Shown: positions 10,267-40,127 of the stretch, piece by piece
How the letters are laid out: each line of letters starts with the position of its first letter
Position numbering within the stretch: the stretch's first letter is position 1
NCBI RefSeq assembly: GCF_030128825.1
Contig: NZ_CP119127.1
Span: 1,364,001 to 1,428,000, forward strand
Length of the DNA: 64,000 nucleotides
From: Sphingobium sp. WTD-1
GTDB lineage: Bacteria; Pseudomonadota; Alphaproteobacteria; Sphingomonadales; Sphingomonadaceae
Direction: 5' to 3'
Notes under the pieces: model-generated
What the model was told of the DNA's origin: nothing
Seen by the model: the letters and a program-made list of their open reading frames with translations, nothing else
Database searches by the model: none
Translations under genes and position numbers: made by a program

Positions 10267-12237
10267 TTGAAACTGTTTCTGTCCGTCGCGGCCTGCGCGC
10301 TCGCGACTTTTGCGCCTGCTGTCTCTGCGCAAACCGATGCGACCAAGGCCGACGCTGCCAAGGTGCCGGCGACCGCCGCCAAGACCTGGCCGGTAGAGGC
10401 CTTTGCCGAACTGCCGGCAATGGACTCACCCGAACTCTCGCCCGATGGCGCGCGCGTTGCCGCGCGGATCGCGATCAAGGGCGAGCAGCGGTTGGTGATC
10501 GCCGAAGTGAAGGGCGGCAATGTCCGTAACATGGGCTTGGGCGACAATGATCTCAACTGGTGGCGCTGGGTCAATAATGACTGGCTGATCGTCGGCATCG
10601 GCGCGGAAACCAATGTGCAGGGCGATACCTGGTCGATCAGCCGCGTTGCCAGCATCAAGGCGGATGGCACCAAGGCCAGCATCCTTGCCAAGGCTGTCGC
10701 CGCGCAAAATGGCGACGATGTCATCTGGGTCGCGCGTGACGGCAGCCCGCGCATCCTGCTCTCCTACCAGACCTCCATCTATTATGATGATCTTGGTTTT
10801 TGGCCTCAGGTCAGCGAAGTGGATGTCAGCACCGGCAAGATGCGCACCGTCGTGCCCTCGCGCCAATATGTGCGCAGCTGGTATGCCGATGCGACTGGCG
10901 CGGTGCGCATGGGGGTGGGCTATAATGACTCCAGCCGTTCCTCGAAACTGCTCTACCGCCCCGATGGTCGCGGCAGTTTTCGCGTGGTCGACAGGGCCAA
11001 TCGCCGTCGCCATGAATCACTGATCGTGCCGATGCTGTTCACGGCCGATCCGGGCAAGGCGATCGCCAGTGACGATCGCGACGGCACCGATGCCTTTTAT
11101 GAACTGGACCTCGGTACGCTGGAACTGGGCAAGAAGCTCTACGAAGCGCCCGGCTTCGATCTTGGCGGGCTGGAAGTAGACGCTGCCGGCACCGGCATGG
11201 CGGGCGTGCGCTACACCGCCGATGCGCCAGCCGTTCACTGGTTCGATCCGACCCTGGCGAAAATTCAGGCCGATATCGACAAGGCCGTGGGCGATCGCCG
11301 GGCGCGCATCGTCTCGACCAGTCAGGACTTGAAGAAACTGATCGTGCATGTCGGTGCAGCCAGCCAGCCGGGCGCCTATTATTTCTATGACACCGATTAT
11401 GGCGCCATGTCGCTGCTGTCGAAAGTCAGCGAGACGCTGGGTGTCCGGCCCCAACTCTCCCCGGTCAAGACGATCCGCTACAAGGCGCGTGACGGTCTGG
11501 AGATCGCGGCGGTGCTGACCTTGCCCTATGGCAAGGAGGCGAAGAACCTTCCCTTGATCCTGATGCCCCATGGCGGTCCGTTCGCCCGCGATGCGGAGAC
11601 ATGGGATTGGTGGGTGCAGTTCCTGGCCAATCGCGGCTATGCGGTGATCCAGCCCAATTATCGCGGTTCGTCGGGCTATGGCACGGACTTCGCGGCTAAG
11701 GGCGAGGGGCAATGGGGCCTTGCCATGCAGGATGACCTCAATGATGCGGTCGATTGGGCGGTGAAGCAGGGCATTGCGGACGCCAAGCGGGTCTGCGTCG
11801 TCGGCGCCTCCTATGGCGGCTATGCCGCGATGCGCGCGGCCCAGCGCGACGGTGGCCGCTATCGCTGCGCCGTCTCCTATGCCGGCGTGTCGGATCTGGG
11901 CGCGATGATGCGCTATGACCGGCGCTTCCTGAATTCCGGCGCCAGCGGTGACTGGCTGAAGGAGCAGGCGCCCGACTTCGGCGTCGTTTCGCCGATCAAC
12001 TATGCCGCCGGCTTCTCGACGCCGATCCTGCTGATGCATGGCAAGAAGGACCGGCGCGTCCCGGTCGGCCAGTCACGCGAGATGGCGGAAAAGCTCAAGG
12101 CTGCCGGCAAGGTGGACGGCCGCGACTATATCTATGTCGAACAGCCGCTGGCCGACCATTTCTTCTCGCGCCAGGCCGACCGGCTGGAATTCCTCCAGCA
12201 GCTCGAAGCCTTTCTGAAAGCGCATAACCCCGCCTGA
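10267..12237 (+). CDS. Secreted S9-family prolyl oligopeptidase
   Basis: Serine peptidase of the S9 (prolyl oligopeptidase/acylaminoacyl peptidase) family, exported by an N-terminal signal peptide (LKLFLSVAACALATFAPAVSA). The first part is beta-propeller-like (SPDGARVAARIAI...), and the last 250 residues are an alpha/beta-hydrolase. The nucleophile is in VVGASYGGYAAM, the acid in LMHGKKDRRVPV and the His in LADHFFS. I place the start at TTG 10267, six bases after a G-run, because ATG 10246 sits in the hppA terminator stem; the longer form (663 residues) remains possible. It probably degrades peptides in the periplasm. Confidence 0.9.
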   Translation: MKLFLSVAACALATFAPAVSAQTDATKADAAKVPATAAKTWPVEAFAELPAMDSPELSPDGARVAARIAIKGEQRLVIAEVKGGNVRNMGLGDNDLNWWRWVNNDWLIVGIGAETNVQGDTWSISRVASIKADGTKASILAKAVAAQNGDDVIWVARDGSPRILLSYQTSIYYDDLGFWPQVSEVDVSTGKMRTVVPSRQYVRSWYADATGAVRMGVGYNDSSRSSKLLYRPDGRGSFRVVDRANRRRHESLIVPMLFTADPGKAIASDDRDGTDAFYELDLGTLELGKKLYEAPGFDLGGLEVDAAGTGMAGVRYTADAPAVHWFDPTLAKIQADIDKAVGDRRARIVSTSQDLKKLIVHVGAASQPGAYYFYDTDYGAMSLLSKVSETLGVRPQLSPVKTIRYKARDGLEIAAVLTLPYGKEAKNLPLILMPHGGPFARDAETWDWWVQFLANRGYAVIQPNYRGSSGYGTDFAAKGEGQWGLAMQDDLNDAVDWAVKQGIADAKRVCVVGASYGGYAAMRAAQRDGGRYRCAVSYAGVSDLGAMMRYDRRFLNSGASGDWLKEQAPDFGVVSPINYAAGFSTPILLMHGKKDRRVPVGQSREMAEKLKAAGKVDGRDYIYVEQPLADHFFSRQADRLEFLQQLEAFLKAHNPA

Positions 12238-12243
12238 GCGAAG

Positions 12244-12273
12244 TGCGGCGCGACTGTCAGAAGTCGCGCCGCA
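12244..12273. terminator. Hairpin between S9 peptidase and TonB receptor
   Basis: TGCGGCGCGACT at 12244-12255 pairs with AGTCGCGCCGCA at 12262-12273 around a six-base loop. It sits at the junction of two convergent genes and includes the last codons of the receptor, so it can stop transcription from both sides. Confidence 0.65.
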
Positions 12274-14497
12274 ATTCCAGGAAGACGGTGCGCGGCCGGC
12301 CGACAAAGGCGCCCTTGCGCGCATCGAAGGTGGCGACGGCATAGGTCTTGTCGAAGATATTCTCGACCCGGATCATCGCTTCCGCAAAGCCCAGATCCTG
12401 GGTGATGCTGCCGTCGAACACGGTAAAGCCGGGAATATGCGCGCCGCGCCGGTCGATCTGCCCCGACACATATTGGCCGCCCAGCGCCAGCGCCGTGCCC
12501 CAAACCGGCATCTGATAGCGGGACCATAGCCCGGCCTGATGATGCGGGGCGTTGGGGAAGCGGCCGCCGACCGCATTGTCGATCGTCGCGCCGTCCGCGC
12601 TGTCGGTGATGCGCGCGTCATTATAGGCGTAATTGGCGGTCAGCACCCAATTCTTGCTGAGGTCCGCCGCCAGCGTCAGCTCGATCCCCTTGCTGGTGAC
12701 TTCGCCGACCGGCGACAACTGGTCCAGTCCGTTGACCGGTTCCAGATCGGGATCGACCTGCACGATGCCGTTGCGCACAATATGGTAGAGCGCGACCGTC
12801 GGTTGCAATTTGCCCTGCAGCAACGCGCCCTTTGCGCCGATCTCGAACTGGCGGCTGGCGATCGGGGCGAAGGGGCCGCCGACCGCCGGATTCTGGTTGC
12901 CGGCATCCTGAGGCTCGAAACTCTGGGCATAGCTGCCATAGAGGGACAGAGATTGCACCGGCTTGTAGATGCCGCCGACGCGCCAGCTCCAACGGCCCCC
13001 TTCGGCATAATCGCCACCGATCCGGTCCTTGTCGTCGAACCAGTCATGGCGCACCCCGCCGACCAGGATGACATGGTCGCCGATGTCGGCCTGTTCCTGC
13101 GCATAGGCGCCATAGCGATGGGCGAGGGTGGCCGTGACATTGGGCGTCAGGCCGGCCAGGTCCGCCTCGGTCGGGTTGCTCAGGCCATAGACGGGATTGC
13201 TCAGCGACAGGCCCGGCACGTCCTTCAGCGTCACGCCGCTGAAATCCTGCGTCTCGCGATACCAGTCGGCGCCCACCAGCAATGTATGCTTGATCCCGCC
13301 GGTCTCCAGCCTGGCGATCATGTTGCTCGCCAGGCTGGCGCCCTTGATCGTGCGATGCTGCGACCGGAATTCGCGCGGCTGGGTATCGACGACGCCATCG
13401 CCATCGGTGTCGATCGGTCCCAGCGGTTCATGATAGCGCTGATATTCGGTATAGCGGAACCAGCGGCCCGATGCATTGATGCTCACCGCATCCGACAGCC
13501 GGCTGTCGAGCCGCGTCTGCAGCACCGTGCCTTTCAGGTCCAGTCTGTCGTTCTTCTCATTATGGGTCCAGCTGCGGTCGGCCAGAAAATGGCCATCTGC
13601 GTCGATCGCCACGCCACGCAGCCGGTTGCCGGGCAGATCCTGGTCATAGCGGGTCGCCTGCACCGTCAGGCTGGTGTCGGACGCCAGCTTGAACTTCAGC
13701 CCGCCGTCCGCGACCAGGCTGCGACTGCCGGAAAAACGCTGCACCGTGTCGAAGCTTTCGTAGAACAGCCCGGTGCGCGCCGCGACAACGCCATTGGCGT
13801 CGATTGGCCCGGTCACCTCGCCTGACGCGCCATAGCGGTCATAATTGCCGATCACCGCGCGTACCGATGCGGCGAACTTGTCCTGCGGCTTCTTGGTGAC
13901 ATAATTGACCATGCCGCCCGGCGAGCTGGCGCCATAGAGCATGCCGACCGGCCCTTTGAGAAACTCCACCCGGTCGATGCTGAAAAGGTTCGGCACGGCG
14001 AAGCCCTGGAACGGGTCGCCGCGCAGTCCGTCATAGAACATCGATTCCTGCCGGAAACCGCGATAGGTGACGGTGGCATATTGGTTGGCGCTGACGCCCG
14101 CGACATTGCGATAAAGATCGGTGATGTCGCGCGCGCCCTGGTCGCGGATCAGCTCGCTGGTGATGACCTGCACCGACTGGGGAATGTCCATCGGATCGGC
14201 CGGGATTTTGCCGATCTCGCTATCCTCGGCGCGATAGAGTTTCTGCGCGCGGGCGGTAACCAGGATGTCGCTGTCGCCGGCGGCCGCATCGAGCGGGGCC
14301 TGCGCCAGCACGGGCAGTGGCGCAAACAGGGAGGGCAGGGCGCAAAGATGCGCGACACGGAGGCTGGGCAAGGCGGCGATCCCGTTGAAATGGACAAGGA
14401 ATGGAGCCGGTTCGCTCCCTCTGCCTCTCCCGAATGCTGCTTCGGCTAATGATATTGCGAGTGTATTGCAACACGTGGCTGGCTGATTTGATGCCAT
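12257..14497 (-). CDS. TonB-dependent siderophore receptor
   Basis: Outer-membrane gated channel. A plug domain follows the signal peptide (DIPQSVQVITSELIRDQGARDITDLYRNVAGVSA, FLKGPVGMLYGASSPGGMVNYVTKKP). The 22-strand barrel ends in LELRRDF with the terminal aromatic typical of barrel insertion. The match is to the FhuA/FpvA-type siderophore group. The only ATG is at 14497, but the hydrophobic signal (HLCALPSLFAPLPVLAQA) starts about 43 codons later and an operator-like repeat lies between, so a TTG start at 14371 is plausible. There is no TonB or siderophore gene nearby. Confidence 0.88.
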   Translation of the reverse strand: MASNQPATCCNTLAISLAEAAFGRGRGSEPAPFLVHFNGIAALPSLRVAHLCALPSLFAPLPVLAQAPLDAAAGDSDILVTARAQKLYRAEDSEIGKIPADPMDIPQSVQVITSELIRDQGARDITDLYRNVAGVSANQYATVTYRGFRQESMFYDGLRGDPFQGFAVPNLFSIDRVEFLKGPVGMLYGASSPGGMVNYVTKKPQDKFAASVRAVIGNYDRYGASGEVTGPIDANGVVAARTGLFYESFDTVQRFSGSRSLVADGGLKFKLASDTSLTVQATRYDQDLPGNRLRGVAIDADGHFLADRSWTHNEKNDRLDLKGTVLQTRLDSRLSDAVSINASGRWFRYTEYQRYHEPLGPIDTDGDGVVDTQPREFRSQHRTIKGASLASNMIARLETGGIKHTLLVGADWYRETQDFSGVTLKDVPGLSLSNPVYGLSNPTEADLAGLTPNVTATLAHRYGAYAQEQADIGDHVILVGGVRHDWFDDKDRIGGDYAEGGRWSWRVGGIYKPVQSLSLYGSYAQSFEPQDAGNQNPAVGGPFAPIASRQFEIGAKGALLQGKLQPTVALYHIVRNGIVQVDPDLEPVNGLDQLSPVGEVTSKGIELTLAADLSKNWVLTANYAYNDARITDSADGATIDNAVGGRFPNAPHHQAGLWSRYQMPVWGTALALGGQYVSGQIDRRGAHIPGFTVFDGSITQDLGFAEAMIRVENIFDKTYAVATFDARKGAFVGRPRTVFLELRRDF
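14455..14471 (-). promoter_or_regulatory. Possible iron-box-like inverted repeat upstream of receptor
   Basis: TTGC-N9-GCAA inverted repeat in AT-rich DNA (TTGC at 14455, GCAA at 14468). Similar repeats occur in front of iron-regulated receptor genes in related bacteria, recognised by Fur-like proteins. It would be inside the gene if ATG 14497 were the start. Weak evidence from one site only. Confidence 0.3.
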
Positions 14498-26043: not shown

Positions 26044-26119
26044 GCCCGGGTAGCTCAGTTGGTAGAGCATGCGATTGAAAATCGCAGTGTCGGCGGTTCG
26101 AATCCGTCCCCGGGCACCA
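26044..26119 (+). tRNA. tRNA-Phe (GAA), with encoded CCA
   Basis: The acceptor arm GCCCGGG (26044-26050) pairs with CCCGGGC (26109-26115), then A and CCA. The D loop has GCTCAGTTGGTAGAGC, the anticodon stem is TGCGA/TCGCA with loop TTGAAAA (anticodon GAA), and the T arm has GGTTCGAATCC. Total 76 bases. An accessory block begins just downstream, but I found no repeated tRNA 3' end that would mark an att site. Confidence 0.97.
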
Positions 26120-26552
26120 TTTTTGCAGTAGCGGAAATTAGTCGGAATAGTCCAAGGGACGATCTTCGACCGTTCGCGCGTCAGCGGTCCTGCTGTATAG
26201 TGGGGTAGCCGAGAGCGCTGAATGCCTTTGGCAGCACGGGCAGTGGCTTCGAAGAACAGCTACTCAAATGGCGTTCAGGCATAGGTTCTCGAACTGGCAA
26301 ATTCTATTTCGTGCGCCATATCTCCACGATGCCCCCCCCGGCATATGGGCCTTGCCGAAATTGGGCTGGCTGTTCTTTGCCTCCTATCCTCAAATCAGGA
26401 TGCAAGGCGTGTGAAACGCTGGCGGGCGGGCGGTGCCATCAACAACTCGCGATATTCGCCTGCCGAACCAAAAAAATAGCCCGGAGACACTTTGATCTCC
26501 GGGCTAAGAAAAAGGCTGCCCCATCGGGCCTCCTTCGGGTCGCGCGCCTTCC
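26120..26552. other. Gene-poor stretch downstream of tRNA-Phe
   Basis: About 430 bases without a supportable gene. Frames of 48-81 codons exist here but lack a ribosome-binding site, domain pattern or start support. It contains the terminator at 26477-26506. No integrase remnant or direct repeat of the tRNA end was found. Confidence 0.5.
26477..26506 (-). terminator. Canonical Rho-independent terminator (leftward)
   Basis: TAGCCCGGAGA at 26477-26487 pairs with TCTCCGGGCTA at 26496-26506 around an eight-base loop. On the minus strand it is followed by seven T residues. It must end a leftward transcript starting between here and the crp-type gene. Confidence 0.85.
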
Positions 26553-26609
26553 TTAAGAGGTTGTCATCGCCGTGGCCGTGATCGAGATCACATATTTTCC
26601 GAGAATCAT
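26553..26609 (-). CDS. Possible 18-codon small ORF or leader/sRNA
   Basis: MILGKYVISITATAMTTS, with a strong ribosome-binding site (AGGAGGGCAGG) just before its ATG at 26609. A second weak hairpin followed by T5 and then the canonical terminator lie downstream, so a leftward transcript of about 150 bases is likely. It is divergent from the Crp/Fnr gene. It may be a small protein, a leader peptide or simply part of an sRNA. Confidence 0.35.
   Translation of the reverse strand: MILGKYVISITATAMTTS
26577..26592. promoter_or_regulatory. Crp/Fnr-type operator
   Basis: The sequence cGTGATCGAGATCACA is a near-perfect GTGA-N6-TCAC palindrome of the Crp type (consensus TGTGA-N6-TCACA). It is about 95 bases upstream of the Crp/Fnr gene whose recognition helix has the matching R-E-T-A-S-R pattern, and it lies inside the small ORF. 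Autoregulation or control of the divergent transcript is inferred. Confidence 0.55.
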
Positions 26610-26686
26610 CCTGCCCTCCTGTTCATCCTGGGCGCATCGGCTATGCCAATGCCTGGACGATCCATTTTCACCAGGGAGCGGCGGAT

Positions 26687-27340
26687 TTGCAGGTCGAGGA
26701 GCAGGTCGAGGTGTTGGCAGCGGTTTTCCGATGTGATCGGAAGGCCGCGAACGCGCTGCGTCGCGTCCTGATTCCACAGCCGGTTGCCGCTAAGCAGATA
26801 CTGGCCCGTCAGGGAGAGACATCCCATCATTGCTGGCTGATCGTCGATGGCTGCGTGGCGGTCCAGACCTTTGGTATCGACGGTCAGCGCCAGCAATTGG
26901 CAAGGCATGGGCCAGGTGAGTTTTTTGGCGCATATCCGGCGCCCACGACGCATCGGGCGGAAATTGAGGTGTTGGTCGATAGCCGTCTGCTGCGGGCGGA
27001 TGCGCAATCCTTGGCATCGCTCGTGGCGGGAGACGCCCAGATTGGCGCAGGCATGGCTTGGCTGCTGGCCCGGCAACTGGATCGCGCGCTTGATCGGATG
27101 GCGACGCGCTCCACTTATAGTGCGGCTGGGCGGGTTTATAGCGAATTGCTTGCCCTGGCGGACGGGCGCGACCATATCGTGCCCGCGCCGCAGATCACCA
27201 CCTTGGCCCTTAGTGCCAATACCACCCGCGAAACAGCGTCACGGGCGATCGCCGTGCTGATCCGGCGTGGCATTGTCAGCCGGGAGGACGGGCAGATGCA
27301 GATTCATGCGCCTCGCATGCTGGCAGACATGGTGATATAA
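26687..27340 (+). CDS. Crp/Fnr-family transcriptional regulator
   Basis: 217 residues from a TTG start with GGGAG eight bases before; no ATG is in frame upstream. The N-terminal cyclic-nucleotide-binding-like beta domain (about 25-115) includes LARQGETSHHCWLIVDGCVAVQ. The C-terminal winged HTH (about 145-210) has ALSANTTRETASRAIAVLIRRGIV, with RETASR as recognition helix, as in E. coli Crp (RETVGR). There is no cluster of Cys for an FeS site. The effector is unknown. It converges with the TPR/SLOG gene and may regulate the accessory block. Confidence 0.88.
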   Translation: MQVEEQVEVLAAVFRCDRKAANALRRVLIPQPVAAKQILARQGETSHHCWLIVDGCVAVQTFGIDGQRQQLARHGPGEFFGAYPAPTTHRAEIEVLVDSRLLRADAQSLASLVAGDAQIGAGMAWLLARQLDRALDRMATRSTYSAAGRVYSELLALADGRDHIVPAPQITTLALSANTTRETASRAIAVLIRRGIVSREDGQMQIHAPRMLADMVI

Positions 27341-27352
27341 ACAGGGGGGTCG

Positions 27353-28804
27353 TCAGTGTGATGACGAATAATAGTGACCGACCGGGCAATCGCCCTGACG
27401 AGTCATCACTTCCCCGGCGATTTCGAAACGATAGCCATCGCCCTGGAGCGCCATGGCGGCGGCCTGTGGCCAGGGCATGCAGAGGCAGCCGGCGGGCGCT
27501 GCCGGTGCCAGAAGCATAGCCAGCCACTCTTCGCTATCGATATTATCCGTCCGTGGGAGCGTTTTGTATTCCAGCGCCAGGCCATGGTCTGGCCTGGCCT
27601 TCAGCAGGGCGCAACCTTGCAGCAAGGCAGTCGCCACATCGTCGAACATCAGGAAATGCAGGCCGTTGCTGCTTTCTTGCATGGTAGGGGCAAGGCGTGT
27701 CGTGGCCACAAGCATGGCCTTGTTGACGGCCATCGCCAGCCTGTTGCCCGGCGGGGGGAGAGATTGGGTCAGGACGATGTCATGTATCGGCAGCCCTCGC
27801 GCTTGCCAGAGGCGATGGGAGGGGGCGGGCGTGTCCGATGCGCGGCCGACATGGAGGGCGATGGCTTGGGTCGCGAGGGCTTCTGCCCGACGCAGCGCTA
27901 GTCCCATGGCGATTTCGCTACCCTTGTCGATTGCGGCACCGGACAAGGTAGCGATGTTTTCGGGGGCCTCCAGGCTGTCCGCCATCTCTATCAGCCGGTC
28001 GAAGCGGGCAAGCCAATGGTTGCCGAACTGGCCAACCGATGTCTGACGGAAGATGTCGAGCGCGGTCGGCAGGACAACATGCAATTGGGCGCCCCGGGCG
28101 ATAACGCATTCGGCGATGACTATGTCGGCTCCAGCCGCCAAGGCGCCAAAGGCGGCGCCCGGCCCGATGTCGTCGAGCGCGGCCTCGATCTTGCGATGCG
28201 CTTCGGCCTCATTTTCCGGTAGGCCGATAATGCCGCTGAAATAGAGGCTAGGCGGTGGACGCAGGGGATCAAGGATCGCGGTGGGGCGTCCCTGTCTCGT
28301 CAGGATTTGATGAAATTGACGCAAGGTTGCAGCATGATCTTCCCACGCTTCGGGCGCGGCTGCCATCGCTTGGCGCAAGGCGGTCTGGCTGGCCGCCTCC
28401 TCTCCGAGCAGCAGATGGGCTTCGGCCGCCGTGGCGGCCAGCCAGTAGCGCGTTTCCTGTTCATGGTCGCCGCTGTCGAGCAGCGCCAGCACCTTGCGCG
28501 CGAGGTCGGCCGCCGCCGCCGACTGATCGTTGAGAAAGGCGAGGGTGGCAGCATTGATTAGCGGATAGGTCGCGCGGCAACCGCCCGCAGCCTGGAGATA
28601 GGCCTGCTGTGCCTCGTCTAGCAATGTCGTGCGCTCCGCGCCTTCGCTGCGCAGCGCTTGATCCTTTAGCAGCCGACCCTTCAGGGTCAGGGCTTCGGTG
28701 TCGTTCGATTGCAGCAAACCGGCCGTGCCGAACATCGCCCAGGCACGGACGGTATCGCCGCTGCGTGCGACCCTACGGATCTGCGCGAGGATCGGAAGGA
28801 TCAT
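27353..28804 (-). CDS. TPR / SLOG-like / degenerate class III cyclase protein
   Basis: 483 residues, no signal or membrane segment. Residues 1-175 are helical and TPR-like (LLDEAQQAYLQAAGG, EAHLLLGEEAASQTALRQAM). Residues 186-345 resemble the SLOG-like (TRAF-binding/DUF4071-type) domain: SLYFSGIIGLPE, FGALAAGADIVIAECVIARGAQLHVVLP, then W-ARF and a second half (IAMGLALRRAEALATQAIALHVG). Residues 351-483 look like a class III nucleotidyl cyclase that lost its catalytic residues: SSNGLHFLMFDD where GDG is expected, and a family-like end EIAGEVMTRQGDCPVGHYY. Domain reading is from memory of related proteins. It is the last gene of the leftward TIR set. Confidence 0.6.
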   Translation of the reverse strand: MILPILAQIRRVARSGDTVRAWAMFGTAGLLQSNDTEALTLKGRLLKDQALRSEGAERTTLLDEAQQAYLQAAGGCRATYPLINAATLAFLNDQSAAAADLARKVLALLDSGDHEQETRYWLAATAAEAHLLLGEEAASQTALRQAMAAAPEAWEDHAATLRQFHQILTRQGRPTAILDPLRPPPSLYFSGIIGLPENEAEAHRKIEAALDDIGPGAAFGALAAGADIVIAECVIARGAQLHVVLPTALDIFRQTSVGQFGNHWLARFDRLIEMADSLEAPENIATLSGAAIDKGSEIAMGLALRRAEALATQAIALHVGRASDTPAPSHRLWQARGLPIHDIVLTQSLPPPGNRLAMAVNKAMLVATTRLAPTMQESSNGLHFLMFDDVATALLQGCALLKARPDHGLALEYKTLPRTDNIDSEEWLAMLLAPAAPAGCLCMPWPQAAAMALQGDGYRFEIAGEVMTRQGDCPVGHYYSSSH

Positions 28805-28828
28805 AATGTTACCACCCTGTTCCTGGAA

Positions 28829-29311
28829 TCAATCGTCCTTGGGTGGCGGATTTTTGATGTCGGGATCGATCGACAACGGAATCCATTTCGGCTCGGTGGC
28901 ACTGGGGTTTTGCAGCAGGTCGATATTGATGTTGAAGCCGTGCCGCGTGCCATATTTGCCGCCCTGGTTGTAGCGTGCCTGGAACCGGACGGTCTTGTAG
29001 CGGTCCTGTTCGGCGCGATAATCATCGTAGGTCAAGCCGCCGTAAAAGGAAGACAGTGGTTCTTCGGTCGTGATGGCGTCATAATTTTTCGAGAAGAAGA
29101 GCTGTTCGCCGATCAGTTTGATCTCCACGATAGAATTTTGGGAGATGGCGATATAGTCGTGATCGGTCACGCCGGGTTGTTCATAGCGCAACGATATCCA
29201 GCCGTCCTTCGCCTCCAGCACCACATTGAACTTAAGTAGCGTGGCTGTGTCATCGAGTTCGACGTCAATCAACGGCGCCAGGCCATATTGGGTATAATTC
29301 AACGTCGACAT
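28829..29311 (-). CDS. Uncharacterised 160-residue protein between TIR and SLOG genes
   Basis: I do not recognise this protein. It is likely beta-rich and soluble, with many aromatic and acidic residues (ISLRYEQPGVTDHDYIAISQNSIVEIKLIGEQLFF, FQARYNQGGKYGTRHGFNINIDLLQN) and a Pro/Lys/Asp tail. No signal, Cys pairs or known motif. Its DNA is clearly more AT-rich than the neighbours by eye, which suggests separate acquisition. It begins two bases after the TIR gene stop, so it is almost certainly co-translated with it. Confidence 0.75.
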   Translation of the reverse strand: MSTLNYTQYGLAPLIDVELDDTATLLKFNVVLEAKDGWISLRYEQPGVTDHDYIAISQNSIVEIKLIGEQLFFSKNYDAITTEEPLSSFYGGLTYDDYRAEQDRYKTVRFQARYNQGGKYGTRHGFNINIDLLQNPSATEPKWIPLSIDPDIKNPPPKDD

Positions 29312-29313
29312 CG

Positions 29314-30909
29314 TTACTTGCTCCCCTTCGTCAATGGTTTGGCCAGTTTGTTCTGCCAGACGCGCCAGTCCCTGTTTGCCGGATCACGTGCGACCAGTTG
29401 GGCAACGTCGGCCTGGGCCTCGGCCCGCAATGCCCGGGCGCGATCCGTCGCGCCCAGATTGTAAAGCAAGTTGGACATGGAGTAACGCGCCAGCATCCAG
29501 TCCTGCAAATGGCCCGCATTCTTTGGATCGCGCCGAAGCAGTGATCGGAGGATCGCGGCCTGTTTCTCACGCTGATCCAATGCCGCGCGGTCGGCGCCCT
29601 GCATCCGCAAGGCGTCCGCCATCCAGGCATGGCGGTTGGCCAGATCGGCGGCGATGTTGGCATCGTCGGGGGCCAGTTGCCGGACCCGCATCATGGTATC
29701 GAGTGCCCCCTGACAGCTTTGCAAAGCCCGATCGCGCGCTTTTTGTGCCAGGGCGATGGTGCAGATATTGCCTTGGGCGTAACCGAGTTCCTGCCAGTAA
29801 GCGCGGTTGCCCGGCCGCAGTTGTACCATTCGTTCGGCGAGGGTCTGATAGGAACGGAAGCGTGACAGCGCGGCGTCGTTCCGGTCGCGCATGAAGTCTA
29901 CATAGCCTAGCCAGAATTCGCTCTGGGCATGAGCGAATAGTCGTTTCGGGTCATTCGGCGCGGCCGACAACAGGGTCTCGGTGACGCGATAGGCTTCGCG
30001 AAACTGGGCAATGGCTGCTGCTGTATCGCCGCGTTTGAAATCATCCTCGCCCATCGCCTGGAGGATACGGGTCCGCCGTTCCAGCGAATCGGTCGGCAAT
30101 GCCTGCAGGTCAGGCTGGTCGGCATAATAAGCGAGCGCGCGCTTGTTCACCGTCTGCAGAACGTCGAGCCTGCCAACGCCCTCCAGTTTTTCCCGCAGAT
30201 CGGTCAGCATGAATTCGATCAGTCCCTCTGCCTGCTGGCGCTGGCTTTCTGCCTCGCTCCTCGCCCGCGCGACGAAGACCAGCATCGCTGCCATCAATAG
30301 GGTAAGAAAAAGCGCAACAAATGTGACGGCGATCACGCGCCGCAACTGACGCTGGGCGTCGCGCTGGATGATCTGGTCGAGCGGCACGCCTGTCAGGCCG
30401 GCGACGATCTTCAGCCGCGCCAGTTTCGGCCCGTCACTGTCGGTGCGAAAATCGGCGGCGATCGGTTCATGTTCGACGCCATTGGCATCGCGGGAGATCA
30501 GGGCGGTAGGAAAGCTGTCGGCTGGTTCGCCTTCGATCAGCGCCGCAATGATTGGCCGATCGGGATGGAGTTCGCGAAACAGTGCGATCTCGGCATTGAC
30601 CCAGCGGGATGCTTTGGCAGCCGGGGAGCAGAGTACCAGCAATGCCTCCGACTGGAACAGGGCCATCCGCACCTGCTCGTCAAGGCTGGAGGCGGCTGGT
30701 AGTTCGGCACGATCGCGAAAGATGGGCGACAGACGGCGGGGGACGGCAGCCCCTCCGGTCAGGGTGCCGACCAATCGCTTCGGTATCCGATAGGTTTCCA
30801 GCCAATGATGCAATTTCCCGGCCGCATGCTCATTGGCATGGCTGTAGCTCAGAAAGGCGCGATAATGCTGCGTGCTGCCTGCGGCAATCGCGTCCTTGCC
30901 CTCGATCAT
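29314..30909 (-). CDS. Membrane-anchored TIR domain protein with TPR tail
   Basis: 531 residues from ATG 30909; the frame is open to 31038 without a better start. The TIR domain (about 16-130) has YRAFLSYSHANE, IFRDRAELPA, and LLVLCSPAAKASRWVNAEI with Glu107 at the catalytic position of NAD-cleaving TIR proteins. A transmembrane helix lies at about 192-214, then a linker (LIEFMLTDLREKLEGVGRLDVLQ) and TPR-like helices to the end. The TIR part should face the cytoplasm and the TPR part the periplasm, if one helix is correct. Similar TIR-TM-TPR proteins occur in many alphaproteobacteria; role in defence or signalling is inferred. Confidence 0.88.
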   Translation of the reverse strand: MIEGKDAIAAGSTQHYRAFLSYSHANEHAAGKLHHWLETYRIPKRLVGTLTGGAAVPRRLSPIFRDRAELPAASSLDEQVRMALFQSEALLVLCSPAAKASRWVNAEIALFRELHPDRPIIAALIEGEPADSFPTALISRDANGVEHEPIAADFRTDSDGPKLARLKIVAGLTGVPLDQIIQRDAQRQLRRVIAVTFVALFLTLLMAAMLVFVARARSEAESQRQQAEGLIEFMLTDLREKLEGVGRLDVLQTVNKRALAYYADQPDLQALPTDSLERRTRILQAMGEDDFKRGDTAAAIAQFREAYRVTETLLSAAPNDPKRLFAHAQSEFWLGYVDFMRDRNDAALSRFRSYQTLAERMVQLRPGNRAYWQELGYAQGNICTIALAQKARDRALQSCQGALDTMMRVRQLAPDDANIAADLANRHAWMADALRMQGADRAALDQREKQAAILRSLLRRDPKNAGHLQDWMLARYSMSNLLYNLGATDRARALRAEAQADVAQLVARDPANRDWRVWQNKLAKPLTKGSK

Positions 30910-31132
30910 GTGCGTCCCGCACTCACTATAACATTCCTCCTCTGGCGATACCCTGTCAGGCATTGGCCATGCCGTGGGCAGGTCTGCCAGAAAAACATGA
31001 ATCATCAAGGGGAAGCATCCGATTCTTCGTGGGAACAAGCCTCTGTCTCACCCATTCGGATCGTCTTGGTGCGTACCCAAAACAGGCCCTTCGACAACAC
31101 CATGCCGTTGCCAATAAGGCGGGCGACAGATT

Positions 31133-32569
31133 TTAACGGGTAACGAAACCGGGCCTGCGCTGTCCCAGGATGATGTGGGCCAGAAGGGCGGCGTTCCGGT
31201 TGAAATGATGGTCGCCGGGCACCAGGAATTGATCTGCGTGATTGCGGGGAATGGCAGGGCAGGCGCTGTCCGTTTCTGTCTGGCCGCGTATGCATCGCAA
31301 AGGGATGCCGTTGATGTGCAGGATGGCCGGTACCGTCGGCAGTGCCTTGTCCGATGCGATGTCCAGCCAGGATGACAGGTGGAATTGAAAGTCGGCGCTG
31401 GCGCTGAGGCCCAGCAGCGAGACGCTGGCGATCCGGCTGCGCGTCTGCGCATCTAGTGTGCCGATCATGTGCGGCAGCACGTCTGCGCCGAAACTATATC
31501 CGATCAGCAGCACGCGCTTCTTGTGCCAGCGCTCGCCAAAGCCCTGGATCAACTGCGCCAGGTCATGCCCGGCACCTTGGGGCGTGCGGGCCGTCCAGAA
31601 ATAGGAGAGGCTGTCGACGCCCACGACCGGAATGCCGGCGGCGGCGATCTGGGCCGCGATGTCTCGATCGATGCCGACCCAGCCACCATCGCCGGAATAG
31701 GCGATGGCCATCAGGTCTTGCGGTCCATGACCCGTTGCCGGGACCAGGGTCAGCGGCATGTCGGGCAGCGGGATCTGGCCGGGCGGTGGGGATGGCGCTG
31801 GGGTTGGCAGGAGAGAGAGGGTGGCGTTGCTCAATTGGTTGCGCAACTGGACCATGCCGTCTCGTGCATTGCTGGAACGGGGCAATTGGATAAGGCGCGC
31901 GCCGGGGACGGAAGAGGCGAAGCGCAGCAGGGGTTTGGGCGCGATTCTGCTGACGCCGGCTTGCTGCAATATGATCCACGCAACGCGGTTGCGCGGGTTG
32001 GGGGCGAAGCGCCATCCCGATTGAGGTTTTGCAACATGCCCGGTCGCGAAGCCGGGCGCCGCGCACCAGGGCTTGTGACCAGCGACGCTCGCCGTCGGGT
32101 TGACCGATATCACGCCCTGATAGCTGGCGTCGGGCCATTGGGCGAGCGCGCCAAAGGCCAAAGTCGCGCCAGCGCCATAGCCGATGAGTATGGGTTGCCG
32201 ATAGCGCACGACGCCTGCGCGATGCTGGATGTCTCGTGCCAGGGCAATCAGCGCATAATTGGGATTGATGCATTTGCCCGGCGCCTTTTCCAGGCCATGG
32301 ATCAAGGCCGGTGCCGACGCGCCCGCTACCAGCAGGCCGTGATCGGCAAGGCCCCGTGCCAGTTCCGTCTCATCCTGGCTCCAGCCATCATGGTCGGACA
32401 ATAGCAGGGCGATGCCCCGAGGATCGCTGACGGGACGGTACAGATGAATCTGGCCGAAGGGGGCAAAACCATAGCTATTGTCACGCCCATCGAGCGCTTC
32501 GCCATGGCTGCTGCTTGGTAATAAAAACAACAGGATGATCGAGGCGATAATCTGGCGGATGTGCCTCAT
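31133..32569 (-). CDS. AcvB/VirJ-family alpha/beta hydrolase
   Basis: 478 residues from ATG 32569 (GGGGA site upstream), with signal peptide IRQIIASIILLFLLPSSSHG. It consists of two tandem alpha/beta-hydrolase-like halves; the second has LLIGYSFGADVLPHM with the serine nucleophile and D-H residues near the end (LVPGDHHFNR), as in AcvB/VirJ. In Agrobacterium AcvB is a periplasmic lysyl-phosphatidylglycerol hydrolase. Usually a lysyl-PG synthase lies next to it; none is here. It is upstream of the TIR gene on the same strand, with a 220-base gap. Confidence 0.88.
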   Translation of the reverse strand: MRHIRQIIASIILLFLLPSSSHGEALDGRDNSYGFAPFGQIHLYRPVSDPRGIALLLSDHDGWSQDETELARGLADHGLLVAGASAPALIHGLEKAPGKCINPNYALIALARDIQHRAGVVRYRQPILIGYGAGATLAFGALAQWPDASYQGVISVNPTASVAGHKPWCAAPGFATGHVAKPQSGWRFAPNPRNRVAWIILQQAGVSRIAPKPLLRFASSVPGARLIQLPRSSNARDGMVQLRNQLSNATLSLLPTPAPSPPPGQIPLPDMPLTLVPATGHGPQDLMAIAYSGDGGWVGIDRDIAAQIAAAGIPVVGVDSLSYFWTARTPQGAGHDLAQLIQGFGERWHKKRVLLIGYSFGADVLPHMIGTLDAQTRSRIASVSLLGLSASADFQFHLSSWLDIASDKALPTVPAILHINGIPLRCIRGQTETDSACPAIPRNHADQFLVPGDHHFNRNAALLAHIILGQRRPGFVTR

Positions 32570-39431: not shown

Positions 39432-40127
39432 ATGACCGCCACCAAAGCCTCCGCCGCGCCCTTGCCTTGGCTGCTGTTGCTCCTGTCCGTGACCACGGGT
39501 TTGGTCGACGCGATCAGCGTGCTGGGCCTGGGCAAAGTGTTTACGGCGAACATGACAGGGAACATCGTCTTCCTGGGCTTCGCCGCTGCGGGCACGCCGG
39601 GCTTCCGCGTCGCGCCCTATCTGGTGGCGATTGCCGCTTTCCTGATCGGCGCGCTCGTGGCCGGGCGCGTGGGGAAGGGGCATGCCGGTCTGCCGCTGCG
39701 CCGCTGGCTGATGCTGGCTGCCCTGATCGAGGCGGTATTGCTCTGGATCGCTGCCGGTGTCGCCGTAGGTTTCGACATTCCCGCCCAGTCACCCGGCACC
39801 AGCCTCTATGCGATCATCGCGCTGACCGGCCTCGCCATGGGCTTTCGCAATTCCACTATCCGCCAGCTCAAGGTGCCCGACCTCACCACCACGGTGCTGA
39901 CACTAACGCTGACCGGCATCGCGGCGGATTCCAGTCTGGCTGGCGGCAGCAACCCCAATATCGCGCGCCGTATCGGCAGCGTGGCTGCCATCTTCCTGGG
40001 CGCGGCGATTGGCGCGGCGCTGGTGACCCATGGCGGGCTGGTCGCGCCGCTGCTTCTGGCCGGTGCGCTGGTCCTTACCGGTACGGCGGCCTGCGCGCTG
40101 CATCCGGCCGCTAGCGAACCCGCTTAA
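39432..40127 (+). CDS. YoaK-family (DUF1275) membrane protein
   Basis: 231 residues from ATG 39432, with about six hydrophobic segments and the DUF1275 sequence SVTTGLVDAISVLGLGKVFTANMTGNIVFLGFA and MGFRNSTIRQLKVPDLTTTVLTLTLTGIA. The function is unknown. It is the last gene of the VOC-DoxX-barrel unit and overlaps the convergent lysR stop by four bases. Confidence 0.9.
   Translation: MTATKASAAPLPWLLLLLSVTTGLVDAISVLGLGKVFTANMTGNIVFLGFAAAGTPGFRVAPYLVAIAAFLIGALVAGRVGKGHAGLPLRRWLMLAALIEAVLLWIAAGVAVGFDIPAQSPGTSLYAIIALTGLAMGFRNSTIRQLKVPDLTTTVLTLTLTGIAADSSLAGGSNPNIARRIGSVAAIFLGAAIGAALVTHGGLVAPLLLAGALVLTGTAACALHPAASEPA

Follow-up and report, generated by a model that had tools for sequence, protein, structure and literature searches.

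A window of 64,000 nucleotides from Sphingobium sp. WTD-1 (contig NZ_CP119127.1, positions 1,364,001 to 1,428,000) carries a cassette of four genes. Three lie on the minus strand, separated by gaps of only 2 and 24 bases, as the first-pass annotation of this DNA had reported. They encode a membrane protein with a TIR domain, a 160-residue protein now assigned to the Pfam family pNTSase1, and a TPR-S protein with predicted TPR, SLOG and cyclase folds. The fourth gene encodes a CRP/FNR-family regulator and is convergent with this set (Table 1). NCBIfam and PADLOC profile scans gave weak matches only.

Table 1. Positions of the cassette, its component features and its neighbours in the window
Feature	Position	Strand	Basis
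Shared cassette block (CRP gene, TPR-S, pNTSase1, TIR)	26470..30930	.	~82% DNA identity, edges matching within 3 bases in genomes G018, G016 and G029
CRP-type palindrome CGTGA-N6-TCACA, upstream of the CRP/FNR gene	26577..26592	+	9/10 consensus bases
CRP/FNR-family regulator, convergent with the three-gene set	26687..27340	+	PF00027 52.7 bits, PF13545 32.3 bits
TPR-S protein: ASK1-like TPR, YpsA-like SLOG and apparently dead class III cyclase domain	27353..28804	-	PF20308 35.8 bits; model and fold matches
pNTSase1 gene, 160 residues, read here as DP-EP-like all-beta partner	28829..29311	-	PF20301 209.7 bits; model; SO1698 fold matches
pNTSase1 codons 149-160, tail DPDIKNPPPKDD, with proposed Asp149-Pro150 site	28832..28867	-	DP conservation in alignments
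TIR-transmembrane-TPR membrane protein, 531 residues by homology	29314..30909 (reading frame open to 31038)	-	PF13676 36.8 bits, PF08937 31.7 bits
Codon of presumed catalytic Glu, TIR domain	30589..30591	-	Glu in 37/37 rows
tRNA-Phe, neighbour outside the unit	26044..26119	+	ARAGORN
VirJ/AcvB-type hydrolase, neighbour outside the unit	31133..32569 (or to 32599)	-	PF06057 223.4 bits

Counting that of the window, 46 distinct TIR loci were recovered in profile searches, which used PF20301 and an alignment of relatives with 27 rows. Duplicates were dropped when their last 150 residues were identical, and one locus that ends at a contig edge (L019) was left out; the row counts given here for motif residues (TIR Glu, CRP pocket and cyclase motifs) include some genomes twice. 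The TPR-S gene follows the TIR and pNTSase1 genes on the same strand in 45 of the 46 loci (44 by script rule and L028 by inspection), and L062 is the sole locus without it. A convergent CRP gene is found within 4.5 kb in 35 loci and elsewhere in 2, and is absent from the examined stretch in 9. Named carriers belong to Sphingobium, Novosphingobium, Sphingomonas, Rhizorhabdus, Alteraurantiacibacter and Sphingorhabdus. Because nearly all of the TIR loci were found through pNTSase1, the pairing of these two genes is measured from one side. In L022 the TPR-S gene (10496-11970) and in L029 the CRP gene (12154-12821) are each split across two reading frames, through either decay or sequencing error.

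The three-gene unit proposed in the first-pass annotation is thus strongly supported, and its genes are linked, not scattered, among sphingomonads. The gene set itself needs revision. The convergent CRP/FNR gene, overlooked earlier, is included, and the VirJ-type hydrolase, which had been counted as a member, is excluded, because it is not conserved beside the cassette across loci and occurs without it in genome G841.

The TIR protein scores above cut-off for two TIR profiles, one of which is ThsB_TIR (PF08937, cut-off 21.2 bits). Relatives align from about residue 44 of the open reading frame (ORF) onward, so the start is probably the ATG at 30909. A single strong hydrophobic stretch (residues 188-218 of 531) lies between the TIR domain and a TPR region, and we refer to the C-terminal portion as the transmembrane-TPR (TM-TPR) half. 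The Glu residue that we presume to be catalytic is kept in every aligned row, which agrees with the earlier description of a membrane-anchored TIR protein with this residue intact.

In addition to the TPR-S family, the TPR-S protein matches PF13281 (24.9 bits). Its structure model has an ASK1-like TPR fold, a YpsA-like SLOG fold, which is seen by fold only, and a predicted class III cyclase fold in the C-terminal domain. A YpsA-like SLOG clade is described in PMC9503650. No cassette protein matches SIR2 at E values up to 1. The two metal-binding Asp motifs of class III cyclases are absent from the protein in the window, and none of the 63 proteins of alignment A2 has both patterns. Distant orthologues in the same gene setting (L016:8017-9696, minus strand, and L017:10162-11841, plus strand) keep both motifs. 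Judged by these motifs, the cyclase domain in the window appears to be a dead pseudoenzyme, for which L016 and L017 would serve as natural controls.

The 160-residue protein was taken for an orphan in the first-pass annotation. It belongs to a named family, PF20301, which Pfam describes as "Predicted novel nucleotide synthetase", and its score compares with a cut-off of 25 bits. The GC content of its gene is 52.6%, versus 62-64% for the other three cassette genes. Its structure model is an all-beta sandwich with no helices, and the best solved fold match is SO1698, a member of the DP-EP family (PF08985) that was deposited as a peptidase. The pNTSase1 and DP-EP families also have a C-terminal Asp-Pro motif in common. 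The tail that follows Asp149 in the window's protein is PDIKNPPPKDD. SO1698 reportedly cleaves itself at its Asp-Pro bond, and Asp149-Pro150 is a putative self-cleavage site.

The DP pair is present in all rows of pNTSase1 alignments A1 and A4. Close relatives also have invariant R104, N115, H124, N127 and N129. Among distant relatives the only invariant residues are I148, D149, P150 and N154, which means that an active site made of several residues is not retained. In alignments A3 and A4 the constancy of D, P and N is partly imposed, because every locus row (13 in A4, 17 in A3) is an ORF chosen by the pattern DPx[ILMVF]xN, as opposed to the other rows (18 in A4, 1 in A3). Five ORFs located by position and free of this pattern (L059, L065, L067, L069 and L099) all keep DP, and L065, L067 and L099 do so without the Asn. 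Another sandwich family has a member with a similar ending: a PixA protein (PF12306; L055:1492-1995, minus strand), whose gene adjoins a second PixA-type gene, has the DP tail ...WDPFITIRN, and the tail may therefore predate both DP-EP and pNTSase1. The pNTSase1 protein itself has no PixA match over the Pfam cut-off.

Operon partners provide a further connection between pNTSase1 and DP-EP. Of 197 genomes from a single order, 17 encode DP-EP, and in all 17 loci its gene lies directly behind that of a protein of 1037-1141 residues (from a 46-base overlap to 108 bases apart). The six partners that were scanned for domains all have a winged helix-turn-helix (wHTH), an nSTAND1 domain and TPRs. The TM-TPR half of the partner matches the C-terminal half of the TIR protein, with blastp E values of 6e-33 to 7e-21 in the eight cases tested and by profile in all 17. 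With the TM-TPR half alone as the query against 200 genomes, nine genomes gave matches under 1e-40, the range over which neighbours were checked. A DP-tail gene lies downstream in each of the five best matches, three of which are rows of the query alignment. New evidence from this search thus consists of two of six matches, both under 1e-60 and with a DP-tail neighbour, the four without one lying at 1e-44 to 1e-51.

Two loci combine these parts in other ways. L139 has a TIR-TM-TPR protein and a DP-tail ORF whose nearest family is DP-EP (E value 0.009, below the cut-off), and it links the two families, weakly by score. L140 has a wHTH-nSTAND1-TM-TPR protein and a DP-tail ORF without a Pfam match; this ORF, located by position, has DP and no Asn. 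The nSTAND1-TPR proteins of L141, L142, L143 and L144 match the TM-TPR half more weakly and have no DP-tail ORF downstream, and in L143 a TIR domain sits in front of nSTAND1. At L102:4811-5732, two consecutive DP-EP genes lie behind a wHTH-nSTAND1-TM-TPR gene, and the second starts with a signal-peptide-like stretch.

The CRP protein is over the cut-offs for a cyclic-nucleotide-binding domain (PF00027) and a Crp-type helix-turn-helix (PF13545). Glu78 and Arg90, which we take to be nucleotide-pocket residues, are kept in 32 of 32 rows, and the pocket is intact-looking. A CRP-type palindrome upstream of the CRP gene agrees with the consensus at no fewer than 9 of 10 bases in 14 of 39 loci and at no fewer than 8 in 23 of 39, compared with 0.9% and 8.7%, respectively, of shuffles that preserve base content but not dinucleotide content. 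The palindrome in the window is not significant when taken alone, because two such sites in the window were reached by 20 of 100 shuffles.

The cassette is carried by 7 of 37 genomes of the same genus, its own included, by 26 of 397 genomes at the family level (24 over the family's cut-off; 11 of 96 genera), and by 4 of 398 genomes in a sample of the phylum, all four from the window's own order. At third codon positions, identity to G018, G016 and G029 is 57.8-76.9% for cassette genes versus 78.4-95.3% for flanking genes, an excess divergence compatible with either a separate acquisition or a much higher rate of change. In G841, VirJ comes next after tRNA-Phe with no cassette between them, and the sequence past this point is collinear at 91%. 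The cassettes of G016 and G029 directly adjoin the genes found at window position 40121 onward, and in these genomes tRNA-Phe is 116-217 kb away. Patchy carriage, fixed block edges, divergence, the cassette-free site in G841 and the different site in G016 and G029 together indicate that the cassette moves horizontally. It is not core, and neither of the outcomes that the first-pass annotation had named as refuting (scattered genes, a core block) was seen.

To sample the surroundings of the cassette, 115 flanking proteins were taken from 30 of the loci. Among them, PADLOC gave matches to five models, which are all of Csa3 or RtcR type and each hit a single protein, and Phage_integrase matched three proteins. 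The nearest flanking genes are not defence genes, and the suspected association with defence islands was not seen. Among the first 25 of 124 flank families listed, most are metabolic or signalling. The tRNA-Phe gene does adjoin the block, as noted in the first-pass annotation; no direct repeat marking integration was found. The 3' side of this tRNA is a variable site, at which homology with G016, G029 and G018 (92-95%) ends at window position 26122 and which VirJ occupies in G841 (seen with L049, L051, L052 and L053). The VirJ-type protein has solved AcvB relatives.

We propose, with a probability of about 40%, that the locus is a horizontally moving signalling cassette comprising a membrane TIR-TM-TPR switch, a DP-EP-like partner with an Asp-Pro tail, a SLOG receiver and a CRP regulator. 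The tail of pNTSase1 would be processed, and pNTSase1 would thereby set the state of the TPR half, with the tail or the cleaved domain acting as the switch. Once released, the TIR domain would consume or convert nicotinamide adenine dinucleotide (NAD+), and the YpsA-like SLOG of the TPR-S protein would read the product. The convergent regulator may control its own gene and perhaps the cassette too. The nucleotide or NAD theme of the first-pass interpretation fits this domain content (TIR with Glu, YpsA-like SLOG, and a CRP-type regulator with an intact-looking pocket). In all, the earlier observation is partly confirmed and the interpretation placed on it partly supported.

The DP-EP-like reading of pNTSase1 is based on the SO1698-like fold, the common Asp-Pro motif and the common TM-TPR operon partner. 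If it is right, pNTSase1 works together with a TM-TPR receptor whose output can be exchanged, and the label "nucleotide synthetase" may be wrong. Several results weigh against this proposal. Profile comparison of pNTSase1 with DP-EP by hhalign is not significant (Prob 35% and 7.5%), and pNTSase1 has no PF08985 match at E values up to 1. Equivalents of SO1698 K98 and D37 placed by alignment vary even within DP-EP, no equivalent of Y26 could be placed in pNTSase1, and the register of the tail in the superposition with SO1698 is uncertain by one residue. Four of the nine TM-TPR matches under 1e-40 are without a DP-tail neighbour. Moreover, a single transmembrane segment would put the TPR half outside if the TIR domain is inside, and pNTSase1 has no signal-like hydrophobic stretch.

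A broader form of the proposal seems unlikely to us. At least two proteobacterial lineages would possess a module composed of a membrane TPR receptor half and an Asp-Pro self-cleaving beta-sandwich, in which the cleaved tail yields a peptide or a neo-terminus that is bound by the TPR half and triggers an exchangeable output, which in sphingomonads would be a TIR NADase and in other bacteria a wHTH-nSTAND1 regulator. In that case pNTSase1 would be no nucleotide synthetase. The opposite view, that pNTSase1 is true to its Pfam name and makes a messenger that is read by the CRP pocket, the SLOG protein or both, with TIR as the effector, is quite improbable. The name given by the Pfam curators, the steady company of a CRP-type regulator (35 of 46 loci) and the SLOG protein (45 of 46), and the extra polar residues that are invariant in close relatives speak for a synthetase. 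However, the helix-free sandwich best matches a deposited peptidase, and distant relatives do not keep an active site of several residues. To our knowledge, there is no nucleotide synthetase with this fold.

The purpose of the cassette could be either conflict or regulation. It is plausible, if short of probable, that the cassette is a Thoeris-like system for anti-phage abortive infection, in which infection would prompt TIR to produce an NAD-derived signal to which the SLOG protein reacts. The ThsB-type TIR profile over its cut-off, the YpsA-like SLOG, the patchy carriage and a divergence faster than that of the flanks all suit such a role. However, the SLOG protein is without SIR2 or another effector domain, the flanks gave just the five single-protein PADLOC matches, and no relative was found in phage records or in viral contigs, where 0 of 108 pattern matches were confirmed. 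A relay for stress or physiological signals, in which the TIR protein and the CRP regulator tune metabolism rather than kill, is likewise a reasonable candidate that we hold only tentatively. In its favour, the TM-TPR half bears wHTH and nSTAND1 in place of TIR in all six sister DP-EP operons whose domains were scanned, a CRP-type site upstream of the CRP gene is conserved, and the listed flank families are mostly metabolic or signalling. Yet most of what is known of bacterial TIR domains concerns effectors that consume NAD+, and patchy carriage with excess divergence fits conflict genes.

The predicted systems in which pNTSase1 and TPR-S were named reportedly originate with Burroughs and Aravind (J Bacteriol, 2020), whose proposal is said to include, next to TIR, a TPR protein that senses signals derived from NAD. 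The gene set of the cassette may already be predicted there. The first-pass annotation knew of no described system with this gene set. This holds insofar as no paper describing the cassette was found in the literature on pNTSase1, TPR-S, DP-EP/SO1698 and combinations of TIR, SLOG, TPR and nSTAND, including PMC7824862, PMC8195603, PMC9503650 and PMC11484084, a search outside which the likely source of the family names falls; two of its parts, pNTSase1 and TPR-S, are already named Pfam families.

The small protein of this TIR cassette bears a synthetase label without support from its predicted fold, and our proposal supplies a mechanism that can be tested. It also connects the pNTSase1 family to a structurally solved protein by way of the fold, the tail motif and the operon partner. 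If it is true, the TM-TPR half and the Asp-Pro tail form a receptor-partner pair able to work with either a TIR domain or a regulator of STAND type. The cassette further shows what appears to be a cyclase turned pseudoenzyme, next to orthologues in the same setting that have catalytic motifs.

Among known systems, the predicted pNTSase1/TPR-S systems resemble the cassette in that PF20301 and PF20308 are both present over their cut-offs; the difference is that the small protein here models as a DP-EP-like beta sandwich and not as a recognisable synthetase. DP-EP resembles it in the predicted SO1698 fold and the C-terminal Asp-Pro motif of pNTSase1. The two differ in that pNTSase1 matches DP-EP neither in Pfam nor significantly by profile comparison, the partner's output is TIR here versus wHTH-nSTAND1, and TPR-S and CRP genes are added. 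Sandwich proteins of the PixA and MakC-MakD type are set apart by the missing PixA match and by a gene setting unlike that of the one PixA locus examined. Thoeris (ThsA/ThsB) also combines a ThsB-type TIR with a YpsA-like SLOG. However, ThsA is defined by SIR2 plus SLOG, whereas the SLOG protein of the cassette has TPR and a seemingly dead cyclase domain and no SIR2; its TIR protein is membrane-bound and has a TPR region, and pNTSase1 and the CRP regulator are added.

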